From NCBI RefSeq assembly GCF_023702635.1, contig NZ_CP098455.1, positions 496,001 through 560,000 of the forward strand: a DNA stretch of 64,000 bases. The letters are read 5' to 3'. Shown piece after piece: positions 57,782 through 61,599 of this stretch (positions are counted from its first letter, which is position 1; every line of letters starts with the position of its first letter). The stretch comes from Spongiibacter taiwanensis (lineage in GTDB: Bacteria > Pseudomonadota > Gammaproteobacteria > Pseudomonadales > Spongiibacteraceae). The position numbers and the translations under genes are program-made. The notes under the pieces were generated by a model that worked only from the letters and a program-made list of their open reading frames with translations, ran no database searches and was not told where the DNA came from.

Positions 57782-59470
57782 TTAGGGCGCTGGGGGGAGT
57801 GATTGGTAGGTAACGGAGATTTCATCACCCGCCTGGGGCAACGCATCACCATAAAATACAAGCGCTGCTCCCTGATTACTGTAAAGCACGTCAAAGCCAT
57901 TGCTGTGACCCACATCCCGCGGTACAGCAACACCATCGACAGTCACCTCAACCGTGGAAGCCAAAGGCACGAAATCTAACTGAAAACTACTGGCGAGGCC
58001 CGTAGCCGCCTGAATAACCTGCTCGAACATCACGTTCCAGCTATCTGCACTGGCGCAAATTGAAGAGGCGCTGCCCCCCGTACTCAAAGCGATATCCCGG
58101 TAGTGTGCGCCGCCGCTGGCCGACCCGCCATCACCCACGCAATCGTAACCTTCGCCCGACGGCATCGGAGATTCAAAGGTGTCTCGGGTCTGCTCCGACG
58201 GGCCGACAATGGCGAAGAACGTCGTACCACTCGCGGTAAAAACTTGTTTGTACGTGTTGAAATTTCGAGCCACATAAATGGAATCGGCACCGTGGGGTTT
58301 AACCTCATAAACCGATTCATTTTCCGGCTCGTCAGAAACAAAGACCGCGATATTTGGCGCCGTTTCTCGATCAAAATCGCCGAGGGCCACCTGATCAGCG
58401 CAGAAAAATCCGGTTTCGGAGCCGCTACCATTTGCGCCGGGGCGCGCAATTCCGGAAGGGGCCTCTCCCTCCGCTTCATGACTCCACATTGCCTTCCCAT
58501 TGACGGTGGCAGGAGAAATGAAACGATCGCCAGAACCGTCAGGCAATTCAGTCAGTGCGGTGCAAAATCCCGAATCCGTCGTGGTGGCGCCCAAATGGAA
58601 GTCCACACCCGCCGTGATCAAGCTATCGAAAAACTGGTCTACTCCGCTGCCCAGATTTTGTTGCTCTTCAGACATTGAGCCCGAGTTATCGATAACCCAA
58701 AGAATATCCGCCGCATTGCTGGCCTCCTCGTTCTGACTGAAGCTCTGGGAATTGTCGACCAAATTTGCAGCGGTGCCCGCGGTCATCACCGCAGAACCGT
58801 TATTGATGTCGCCATAGGTTCGAGTGACCTGCTCGGCGAAGCTGCTGGCAAATACCGCTAGCCAAGTAAAAAGCTGATCGTCGAGCTGCCAAAATGCCAT
58901 GCTAACCCGAAACTCACGACCTGCCGCTCCGCCTGAAGGCAACACGGCAACATTTGCATCGGAGCCAAACTGATCGAGCAGTAGGTTACGGATTGCCGAA
59001 CTCGTGTAGGCGCTTCCGGCAAACTCCACATCAAGCACAATCAAGCTGACAGCGGCTTGAATGCCAGAAATATTGCGATTGACCAGTTCGTTTACCGAGG
59101 CACCTTGCTCCTCCAGCGCCGAGCGAACTAGTTGAAGCTTTTCATCGACCGCATCAGACGTCGGAGTGGCATCGCCCTCGGCCTGAGCCACAGCAGGCTC
59201 CTGCACATTGACAAATTGCATCCCGAATGCCGAATAATCGATATCTTCATCATCGAGTAAAAGAGAGGGTTGAGACTCGCCAGCCTCCGTGGTTTTGTTT
59301 GGGTCGATGTCGCCAAAAAGCGCGAGATTGGCATGCTCACTTTCAACAGCGGGTGTCGCCGTTTCTGGCCCAGAGCTACCGCCACTGCCTTTACTATCGT
59401 CGTTACAGGCAGAGAGAGCGAAAAGGAAAAGAAAAGATAATAAAAAAACCTTCAGGTTTTTCTGACGCAT
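57782..59470 (-). CDS. vWA-type surface lipoprotein
   Basis: This 562-residue precursor has a lipoprotein signal peptide with lipobox LSAC (Cys22), then a low-complexity Ser/Gly linker. An N-terminal domain of about 200 residues follows, then a von Willebrand A-like domain. The latter shows the MIDAS start WVIDNSGSMSEEQQ (DxSxS at 261-265). A segment NIAVFVSDEPENES probably supplies the second metal-site loop. Near the C-terminus is FVPLASTVEVTVDGVAVPRD, a beta-rich tail. It has several cysteines that could pair in the periplasm. It is probably an outer-membrane or surface adhesion-type protein. I chose ATG 59470, which has a perfect AGGAGG. A possible own promoter TTGCTT-N17-TTTTAT lies 75-105 bp upstream. 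Confidence 0.82.
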   Translation of the reverse strand: MRQKNLKVFLLSFLFLFALSACNDDSKGSGGSSGPETATPAVESEHANLALFGDIDPNKTTEAGESQPSLLLDDEDIDYSAFGMQFVNVQEPAVAQAEGDATPTSDAVDEKLQLVRSALEEQGASVNELVNRNISGIQAAVSLIVLDVEFAGSAYTSSAIRNLLLDQFGSDANVAVLPSGGAAGREFRVSMAFWQLDDQLFTWLAVFASSFAEQVTRTYGDINNGSAVMTAGTAANLVDNSQSFSQNEEASNAADILWVIDNSGSMSEEQQNLGSGVDQFFDSLITAGVDFHLGATTTDSGFCTALTELPDGSGDRFISPATVNGKAMWSHEAEGEAPSGIARPGANGSGSETGFFCADQVALGDFDRETAPNIAVFVSDEPENESVYEVKPHGADSIYVARNFNTYKQVFTASGTTFFAIVGPSEQTRDTFESPMPSGEGYDCVGDGGSASGGAHYRDIALSTGGSASSICASADSWNVMFEQVIQAATGLASSFQLDFVPLASTVEVTVDGVAVPRDVGHSNGFDVLYSNQGAALVFYGDALPQAGDEISVTYQSLPPAP

Positions 59471-59598
59471 GTGCACCTCCTGTTGTGCTTTGTATTCGAC
59501 CAGCCTCCCTTGGCCAGACCGGCAAGATAAAATCACAGCCTATGAGCAAAAGCAATTTTCCATGCCGCCGTCGCCAGATGCGGTGTAACTTCGGCAAT

Positions 59599-59631
59599 AA
59601 AAAAACCCCAGCCGACAGCGTCGACTGGGGT
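59599..59631 (-). terminator. Strong intrinsic terminator between pycB and the lipoprotein gene
   Basis: On the minus strand ACCCCAG-T-CGAC-GCT-GTCG-G-CTGGGGT forms an 11-pair stem with one mismatch and a three-base loop, followed by seven T residues. It can terminate both the pycAB transcript and the short transcript that would start at the Fur-box promoter. Confidence 0.9.
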
Positions 59632-59704
59632 CAATACGGAGAGACAAGCCACCGGCAATGGCGTGTGAAACGAGGGGGAGACATTAACCACCACCGGCGA
59701 CTTG
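59599..59704 (-). ncRNA. Candidate Fur-repressed small RNA, about 100 nt
   Basis: The sequence between a sigma-70-like promoter under a Fur box and a strong intrinsic terminator would give a transcript of about 100 nt. The expected start is near 59705-59703, 7-8 bases past the -10. The transcript carries an unpaired C-rich stretch GTCTCCCCCTCG (59682-59671, minus), a typical anti-ribosome-site seed. It also carries CACGCCATTGC (59665-59655), which from memory resembles the CACGACATTGC of the RyhB core. A small hairpin GCCAT-TGCCG-GTGGC precedes the terminator. A 17-codon reading frame (ATG preceded by GGTGGTGG) is a less likely alternative. It has not been shown to be transcribed; this is inference from signals. 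Confidence 0.55.
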
Positions 59705-59706
59705 TT

Positions 59707-59731
59707 GTTAATGATATTTATTATCATTAAC
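59707..59731. promoter_or_regulatory. Fur box
   Basis: GTTAATGATA-TTTAT-TATCATTAAC is a perfect inverted repeat with 10-bp arms. The inner 15 bases (59712-59726) read TGATATTTATTATCA against the Fur 7-1-7 consensus TGATAAT-N-ATTATCA, with one mismatch. It covers the -10 and spacer of a minus-strand promoter, the expected position for iron-dependent repression. Confidence 0.82.
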
Positions 59732-59739
59732 GTTTGCAA
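59711..59739 (-). promoter_or_regulatory. Sigma-70-type promoter overlapping the Fur box
   Basis: Minus strand: TTGCAA (59739-59734), 17-base spacer, TATCAT (59716-59711). Five of six bases match the -10 consensus, and spacing is optimal. It points toward the terminator at 59599-59631 and, past it, the lipoprotein gene. Confidence 0.7.
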
Positions 59740-59787: not shown

Positions 59788-61599
59788 TTATTCCGGCGCG
59801 ATCTCCAACAGTACTTCGCCCGGGGTCACGCGATCGCCTTTGGCAACATAAATACTCACCACTTTGCCCGCCACGGGCGCCTGGACCTCGGCCTCCATCT
59901 TCATGGCTTCGGTCACCAGCACCGCCTGGCCAGCCTTCACGGTGTCGCCCTCGGCTACCAGCACTTCAACGATATTGCCCGGCATATTGGTGCTGACGTG
60001 GCCGGGCTTACTGGCCTGCTTGCGGCCACTGCTACCCTCGGCCTGATACTCGTTCAGGGCCTCAAACACCACCTCTTCTGGCATGCCATCCAGGGTCATG
60101 TACACGTGGCGTTTGCCGGCGCCTTTGATCCCCACTCCGGTGATCGCCACCTGATAACTTTCGCCGTGAACATCAATCACAAACTCCGTCGGCACGCCGC
60201 CTTCGCCAACGGGCCGACTGGCACCCGCCTGGGGTTCAAGCACTTCGGGTTTGAGGCTGCCGTCCCGACGCTGCTCCAAAAAGCTCCGCCCCAGGTCCGG
60301 GAACATGGCGTAGGTCAGCACGTCTTCTTCACCCTCTGCCAGGTCACCAATTTCCTTGCGCAGTTTGTCTAGTTCAGGGGGAAGCAAATCGGCGGGACGC
60401 ACGTCGATCACCTCACCACTGCCGATCGCCTGAGCGCGCAATTCCTTGTTTACCTCTGCCGGCGCAGCGCCATAATGGCCCTGCAAATATCGCTTCACCT
60501 CATTGGTGATGGTGGTGTATCGCTTGTCAGCAAGAATATTCATCACCGCCTGGGTGCCGACAATCTGTGAGGTTGGTGTTACCAGAGGGGGATAACCCAG
60601 ATCCTTTCGCACTGCGGGAATTTCGGCAAAGACCTCATCGATTCGATTCAGCGCGCCCTGCTCTTTCAGCTGATTCGCCAGATTCGACATCATGCCCCCG
60701 GGCACCTGATTGATCTGAACGCTGACATCTTCCCGGGTGAACTCACTCTCAAACTGATGGTATTTCTTGCGCACCGCCCAGAGCTTTTTGCTCACGCTCT
60801 GCAGTTTCTCAAGGTCCAGCCCGCTATCTCTGGCGGTTCCTTTCAAGCCGGCCACCATGGTTTCGGTAGCCGGGTGGCTGGTGCCATTGGCGAAGGCTGC
60901 CATTGCGGTATCGATGATATCCACGCCCTCGTCAATTGCGCGCAGCTGGCACAGGCCGGCCAGCCCCGAGGTCATATGGCTGTGCAAGGCGATGGGCACA
61001 TCGAATTTATCTTTCAGTGCCGCCACCAAATCGGCGGTGGCATCCGGGGTCAGCAGGCCCGCCATATCCTTGATGGCTATCGAGTCGACCCCCATGGCGA
61101 CCATCGCTTTGGCCTGCTTCACAAAGGTTTTGGTGTTGTGGACCGGGCTGGTGGTGTAACACAGGGTGCCCTGGGCATGCTTACCGGTTTCCTTCACAGC
61201 GGCAATCGCCGTTTCCAGATTGCGCACATCATTCATGGCATCGAAGATACGAAAAATATCCATGCCATTGTCGGCGGACTTCTGCACAAAGGCTTTCACC
61301 AGGTCATCGGCGTAGTGCCGATAGCCCAGCAGGTTTTGGCCACGCAGCAGCATCTGCAACTGGGTATTGGGCAAGGCAGCGCGCAGTTTGCGCAGACGCT
61401 CCCAGGGGTCTTCCTTCAAAAAGCGCACGCAGGAATCAAAGGTGGCACCGCCCCACACTTCCATGGACCAGAACCCCACCTCGTCCATCTCCGGACACAC
61501 CGGCAGCATGTCGTCGGTACGCAGGCGGGTGGCGATCAAGGATTGATGCCCGTCGCGCAGGGCAACATCGGTAATTTTGACTGCTTTGGCTTTGCTCAT
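59788..61599 (-). CDS. pycB: Pyruvate carboxylase subunit B (OadA-like, biotin-carrying)
   Basis: This 603-residue protein carries the carboxyltransferase domain and the biotin carrier of a two-subunit pyruvate carboxylase that makes oxaloacetate from pyruvate. The N-terminal TIM-barrel shows ITDVALRDGHQSLIATRLRT, FRIFDAMNDVRN and the metal-site HSHMTSG. The conserved carboxyltransferase segment follows (QVPGGMMSNL). The C-terminal biotinyl domain has the EAMKMEAEV lysine. It resembles oxaloacetate decarboxylase alpha, but the paired biotin carboxylase pycA and the lack of membrane beta and gamma subunits indicate pyruvate carboxylase, as in Pseudomonas. It lies 37 bp after pycA. Confidence 0.92.
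   Translation of the reverse strand: MSKAKAVKITDVALRDGHQSLIATRLRTDDMLPVCPEMDEVGFWSMEVWGGATFDSCVRFLKEDPWERLRKLRAALPNTQLQMLLRGQNLLGYRHYADDLVKAFVQKSADNGMDIFRIFDAMNDVRNLETAIAAVKETGKHAQGTLCYTTSPVHNTKTFVKQAKAMVAMGVDSIAIKDMAGLLTPDATADLVAALKDKFDVPIALHSHMTSGLAGLCQLRAIDEGVDIIDTAMAAFANGTSHPATETMVAGLKGTARDSGLDLEKLQSVSKKLWAVRKKYHQFESEFTREDVSVQINQVPGGMMSNLANQLKEQGALNRIDEVFAEIPAVRKDLGYPPLVTPTSQIVGTQAVMNILADKRYTTITNEVKRYLQGHYGAAPAEVNKELRAQAIGSGEVIDVRPADLLPPELDKLRKEIGDLAEGEEDVLTYAMFPDLGRSFLEQRRDGSLKPEVLEPQAGASRPVGEGGVPTEFVIDVHGESYQVAITGVGIKGAGKRHVYMTLDGMPEEVVFEALNEYQAEGSSGRKQASKPGHVSTNMPGNIVEVLVAEGDTVKAGQAVLVTEAMKMEAEVQAPVAGKVVSIYVAKGDRVTPGEVLLEIAPE

Follow-up and report, generated by a model that had tools for sequence, protein, structure and literature searches.

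The question raised by this locus is what is encoded between pycB and the gene for a vWA-domain lipoprotein in Spongiibacter taiwanensis, where a promoter, a Fur box and a strong terminator follow one another within little more than a hundred nucleotides. The window analyzed here, a stretch of 64,000 nucleotides, is part of the complete 3.71-Mb genome of this organism (G000, NZ_CP098455.1), and a first-pass annotation had proposed that the locus specifies a small RNA with the layout of RyhB and PrrF. Based on the comparative data presented herein, we consider it very likely that the minus strand of 59599-59707 encodes a Fur-repressed, trans-acting small RNA (sRNA) that would spare iron by pairing with the sodB and sdhC mRNAs, and that is probably switched on when iron is short. 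The features on which this proposal is built are collected in Table 1. The annotation held that no gene fits between the promoter and the terminator, and we agree, as the sole overlapping entry in the list of open reading frames is a mechanical one of 167 aa on the plus strand (59227-59730), which is mostly antisense to the vWA gene and which we do not accept as a gene.

Table 1. Coordinates of the predicted small RNA, its parts and its neighbors in the window.
Feature	Position	Strand	Remarks
pycB	59788-61599	-	upstream neighbor, conserved synteny anchor
-35 hexamer TTGCAA	59734-59739	-	TTG exactly 17 nt from the -10 in 13/13 copies
Fur box TGATAATAAATATCA	59712-59726		13/14 to the 7-1-7 consensus, over the -10, within a 25-nt palindrome (59707-59731)
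-10 hexamer TATCAT	59711-59716	-	aligned across copies
Predicted small RNA	59599-59707	-	about 105 nt; putative start near 59704-59706; covariance-model match 59707-59599; fold z -7.0
5' hairpin	59644-59705	-	19 pairs (59705-59687 with 59662-59644); 16/19 pairs changed on both sides, 92.5% of cells paired
C-rich apical loop GTCTCCCCCTCG	59671-59682	-	C-run conserved, 91-100% unpaired
Proposed seed linker UGUCUCUCC	59638-59646	-	includes UCUCUCC (59644-59638), kept in 13/13 full copies
Intrinsic terminator	59599-59632	-	13-pair stem, then T7; 5/9 modelled pairs with compensatory changes
vWA-domain lipoprotein gene	57782-59470	-	downstream neighbor in the window

The control region described in the first-pass annotation is borne out by our analysis. 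The TTGCAA-N17-TATCAT promoter is found on the minus strand, and the palindrome that covers 59731-59707, GTTAATGATA-ATAAA-TATCATTAAC, places over the -10 a Fur box with one mismatch to the 7-1-7 consensus. No other site in the window has fewer than three mismatches, and three sites with up to three mismatches were found against 1.2 expected. In all 13 full copies of the element the -35 TTG, the 17-nt spacing and a Fur box (11-14/14) overlapping the -10 are retained, so that the arrangement typical of Fur-repressed iron-sparing sRNAs, a Fur box over a sigma-70 promoter, occurs in 13 genomes. From this arrangement we infer that Fur would bind the palindrome and control transcription of the RNA.

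The predicted RNA (59706-59599) folds at -53.4 kcal/mol, compared with a mean of -30.3 kcal/mol for shuffled sequences (z = -7.0), into a 19-pair hairpin with a C-rich apical loop, an unpaired linker and a terminator, and it thereby resembles the short, structurally conserved and terminated non-coding RNAs of the class. The terminator hairpin (59632-59604) has 13 pairs leading into T7, just as the strong intrinsic terminator had been described; it probably also ends pycB transcription, and its poly-U end is compatible with an Hfq-dependent sRNA. Since an alignment made with MAFFT alone mis-registered the stems for consensus folding, a structure-guided alignment was used instead. In that alignment 94% of the cells are paired (66% in shuffles, 43-47% in slid controls), 86 cells carry double changes (32 in shuffles) and 21 of the 28 pairs show changes on both sides, counts that lean towards the structure because the alignment was fitted to it, although single-sequence folds agree with it. 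The UCUCUCC linker is single-stranded and invariant, being kept while the stems vary.

To place the element in its phylogenetic context, pycB and its flanks were compared in all 18 genomes of the genus, which includes named Zhongshania, Spongiibacter and Neomelitea records among its members, together with 80 named records. A Fur-like site (11-14/14) lies downstream of pycB in 11 of the 18 genomes, and none was seen in the Pseudomonas, Marinobacter or Alcanivorax loci examined. The same 11 genomes-out-of-18 count holds for the module as a whole directly after pycB, namely TTG-N17-(-10) with its Fur box, the hairpin with the C-run loop, UCUCUCC and the terminator, and two more genomes (G005 and G008) have it one gene further on. 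A covariance model built from two sequences found 12 loci (E 1.5e-27 to 0.02), including a decayed copy in G006, and a broader model run over the genus added the G005 and G008 copies and a decayed remnant without a Fur box in G011. The RNA is thus present in 13 of the 18 genomes, absent in three (G002, G015 and G010) and decayed in two. The covariance and synteny search that the first-pass annotation had named as a check therefore finds promoter, Fur box, structure and terminator conserved together in 13 genomes, that is, beyond the terminator alone. No convincing further copy was found by covariance search among 391 genomes of the order; the matches outside the genus were weak, with an upstream Fur box never above 10/14 among the loci inspected, and were rejected.

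Several observations accompany this distribution. The vWA lipoprotein gene can lie on either side of the RNA, the order being pycB-RNA-vWA in the window and pycB-vWA-RNA in G005 and G008, and in G011 the vWA gene precedes the decayed remnant (L134:1501-1594), which has lost both Fur box and C-run. The decayed G006 copy (L132:1501-1592) keeps the C-run and CUCUCC, with the palindrome GCGTTCACCATTATAAATGATGAACGC replacing the Fur box. In two genomes from another family there is a terminator-linked RNA (L144:1501-1591 and L145:1501-1598) that has a linker-like TATCTCCGCATT and no clear Fur box and is possibly a distant relative.

Which part of the RNA would contact its targets? The annotation had singled out the C-rich stretch 59671-59682 as suited to pairing with ribosome sites. 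This stretch is indeed a real, conserved and unpaired loop, but it has no convincing target: its complement stands next to an ATG at few plausible genes, among them one for a cydB-like oxidase subunit in G013 with the same matched sequence in G014, and we therefore name no firm targets for it. Better support as the main seed goes to the linker UCUCUCC (59644-59638), either in place of the C-rich loop or in addition to it. Specifically, UCUCUCC is complementary over 7-11 bp to GGAGAGA at the Shine-Dalgarno sequence of sodB, a region that reads AGGAGAGA in every RNA-bearing genome in which sodB was found (it was not found in the incomplete genome G003). The predicted duplex has 9 bp in G000 and G012 (-16.5 kcal/mol), 8 bp in G004 and only 7 contiguous bp in G001, G007, G013 and G014, and in the Zhongshania-type clade it reaches 10-11 bp at about -18 kcal/mol, a value equalled by none of 500 shuffles; overall the energies run from -12 to -18.6 kcal/mol, and 0 to 7% of shuffled leaders do as well. 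The extra pairing base tracks lineage, with GGAGAGAC facing GUCUCUCC in G000, G012 and G004 and GGAGAGAAU facing AUUCUCUCC in the Zhongshania-type clade; there the two partners vary in step (sodB GGAGAGAAUCA, RNA UGAUUCUCUCC). Among genomes that lack the RNA, G010 has GGAGGAUA at the sodB site instead, and the G002/G011/G015 clade keeps GGAGAGA, as expected of a ribosome site. The Shine-Dalgarno core itself accounts for part of the complementarity to sodB.

As evidence for a target, the leader of sdhC is more telling than sodB, to judge from sequence comparison. It contains, about 80 nt ahead of the start codon, a hairpin with GGAGAG in or near the apical loop (-77 to -82). All 13 RNA-bearing genomes have this motif and the four that lack the RNA (G002, G011, G015 and G010) do not, while in G006, whose RNA copy has no Fur box, it is altered to UUAGAGAA. 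The co-occurrence gives a Fisher p of 4e-4 when ancestry is ignored. In the pycB tree a single clade unites G015, G011 and G002, with G010 placed beside the outgroup. The pattern therefore reduces to two or three independent events: RNA and motif were lost together once, were either gained together or lost together a second time, and decayed together once. When the whole leader is folded as a single sequence, the GGAGAG hairpin is in some cases (e.g., G004 and G012) not the minimum-energy form. A leader peptide with GGAGAG as its Shine-Dalgarno sequence was considered upstream of sdhC and rejected, there being no consistent start codon. We tentatively suggest, at somewhat less than even probability, that the sdhC leader could carry a dedicated docking hairpin whose GGAGAG loop is gained and lost with the sRNA, and that loop-linker contact some 80 nt upstream, not the masking of a weak ribosome site, would control sdhCDAB. 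In the sdhC leaders (L160-L177) GATCCACTNCC is conserved in most, and several folds pair it with AGTGTGG just before the start codon. Sequestration of AGTGTGG by CCACT, as in several of the predicted folds, may relay the signal as far as the sdhC start codon.

Further targets were sought by pattern and by family. The sequence GGAGAGAC stands 2-10 nt before an ATG at 23 sites in G000 and G012, many of them not at genes; nine distinct genes remain that encode 100 aa or more, and five of these belong to families that we take, from knowledge of the families, to depend on iron: SodB, a Rieske protein, a Tll0287-like lipoprotein with CxxCH, PhoX and a radical SAM protein. The other four we take to be LptB-like, AsmA-like and a CpaF-like ATPase, these three named by eye, and an SDR. 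A control Shine-Dalgarno pattern gave no iron proteins among six distinct genes, also named by eye, and the enrichment (Fisher p 0.04) rests on small counts and is therefore supporting, not decisive. In Zhongshania-type genomes the matching pattern falls at sodB in the five genomes having sodB sequence, at rubredoxin in two and at a cytochrome P450 in one, and also at non-iron genes such as ilvC; for one recurring match a truncated globin had been suspected, which Pfam did not bear out. The idea that the RNA pairs with iron-protein mRNAs thus gains from sodB, the sdhC leader and the pattern search, which includes the Rieske and CxxCH lipoprotein genes, and it fails for acnB, a classical target of iron-sparing sRNAs, in whose leader no complementary site was found, GGAGAG and GGGGG both being absent. 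Separately, about 80 nt upstream of acnB (L294-L310) the sequence ATCGATGATGGGCATCGATAGCCCCGG...CGATCCCGG is strongly conserved in all genomes examined, with or without the RNA, and may represent an independent cis-acting element.

We now put forward a mechanism for the proposed sRNA, in its simplest form a Fur-repressed RNA acting in trans that would cover either ribosome sites or structures in the leaders of mRNAs for iron proteins. When iron is plentiful, Fur-Fe(II) would occupy the palindrome over the -10 and block transcription. When iron is low, an RNA of about 105 nt would be made from near 59704 to the terminator, and both the apical loop of its 5' hairpin and the UCUCUCC linker would be exposed as C-rich, single-stranded segments. 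On sodB and several further mRNAs for iron proteins, the linker would bind GGAGAGA at the Shine-Dalgarno sequence and keep ribosomes from loading. On the sdhCDAB message it would bind the GGAGAG loop of the leader hairpin, which lies about 80 nt before sdhC. The predicted outcome is an iron-sparing response, in which the targets would be repressed, possibly in dependence on Hfq.

The position of this locus, on the same strand as pycB and about 80 nt past the pycB stop codon with no other obvious pycB terminator between, would suit an element that is only the pycB terminator or 3' UTR with a chance palindrome, any small RNA being a by-product without trans targets. We regard this as very improbable, as the promoter and Fur box recur at exact spacing in 13 genomes, even where the vWA gene intervenes (G005 and G008), and the single-stranded UCUCUCC is kept while the stems change. 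It is barely credible that the Fur box instead governs vWA expression by read-through or attenuation at the terminator, with the RNA as the vWA leader: vWA is the next gene on the same strand in the window, but a strong terminator intervenes, in G005 and G008 the gene comes before the RNA, and in most other genomes it was not found in the stretches searched. A different objection concerns the sdhC leader, where GGA in a hairpin loop is the classical CsrA/RsmA signal, and the match to the linker might be coincidental. That the loop is such a site seems to us improbable, since conservation extends to GGAGAG and is lost in RNA-less genomes even though the hairpin-forming sequence remains in G002 and G011.

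The Fur-repressed sRNA that we favor could also be a true, highly diverged PrrF by common descent, which would change its name and not its mechanism. PrrF1 and PrrF2 of Pseudomonas (RF00444) are Fur-repressed, about 115 nt long and have sdhCDAB and other iron enzymes among their targets (PMC2851614). The only matches of the Rfam PrrF model in the genus fall at exactly this locus (G012 at 35.4 bits and G007 at 26.7 bits), and the model has a similar order of Fur-type promoter, 5' hairpin, single-stranded UCUCC part and terminator. Yet the best score is far below the gathering score of 90 bits, the best alignment draws its score from the Fur box and the terminator with the PrrF hairpin deleted, and the other 16 genomes, G000 included, have no match. 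The new RNA also has one strong copy per genome (covariance model R2), unlike the two near-identical PrrF copies, it adjoins pycB and has a C-run apical loop, and no site was found for it in acnB, which PrrF regulates. We judge remote common descent unlikely; given the sub-threshold scores and the deleted hairpin, membership in PrrF is not claimed. The likeness in layout pointed out by the first-pass annotation thus stands for PrrF, and the size matches as well, but the RNA is not PrrF or RyhB by Rfam thresholds.

RyhB (RF00057) shares the Fur-controlled layout and the sodB and sdh targets (PMC7377471), but gave no covariance match at any threshold used. The likeness to its core of CACGCCATTGC (59664-59654), a string within the hairpin's 3' arm, is accidental, and relatives do not conserve that string. 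In Rfam no family covers the RNA at gathering thresholds, and matches to Betaproteobacteria toxic sRNA, NsiR1, anti-hemB and Spot 42 were sub-threshold, mostly carried by the terminator, and set aside. By description rather than sequence relation the RNA resembles the Fur-regulated IsrR of Staphylococcus, in which C-rich regions in hairpin loops and abutting a stem pair with Shine-Dalgarno sequences of iron enzymes (PMC9410917), although IsrR belongs to another phylum and has three hairpins before its terminator. FsrA of Bacillus subtilis, as cited in the same paper (PMC9410917), is an iron-sparing sRNA with a C-rich motif that binds Shine-Dalgarno sequences, but it needs FbpA, FbpB and FbpC and is likewise from another phylum. 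BrrF of Burkholderia, a low-iron sRNA acting on sodB and sdhC in one taxon only, is by analogy a precedent for a taxon-restricted analogue, while differing in its place beside hemP and in that most of its predicted interactions lie outside Shine-Dalgarno sequences; no relatives are reported beyond Burkholderiales (PMC7377471). The literature searched on the present bacterial group yielded no description of the RNA.

The RNA is best called a new, genus-restricted family of Fur-repressed iron-sparing sRNAs, previously undescribed as far as searched, and it would enlarge the group of Fur-controlled iron-sparing RNAs by a new sequence family, from marine bacteria. RNAs of this kind turn up repeatedly in distant bacteria with no sequence relation that can be detected, and the one proposed here would join a PrrF-like layout to C-rich seeds like those of IsrR and FsrA. 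Since natural losses of the RNA are matched by loss of the sdhC site, a single genus offers a test of how an sRNA and its target co-evolve.
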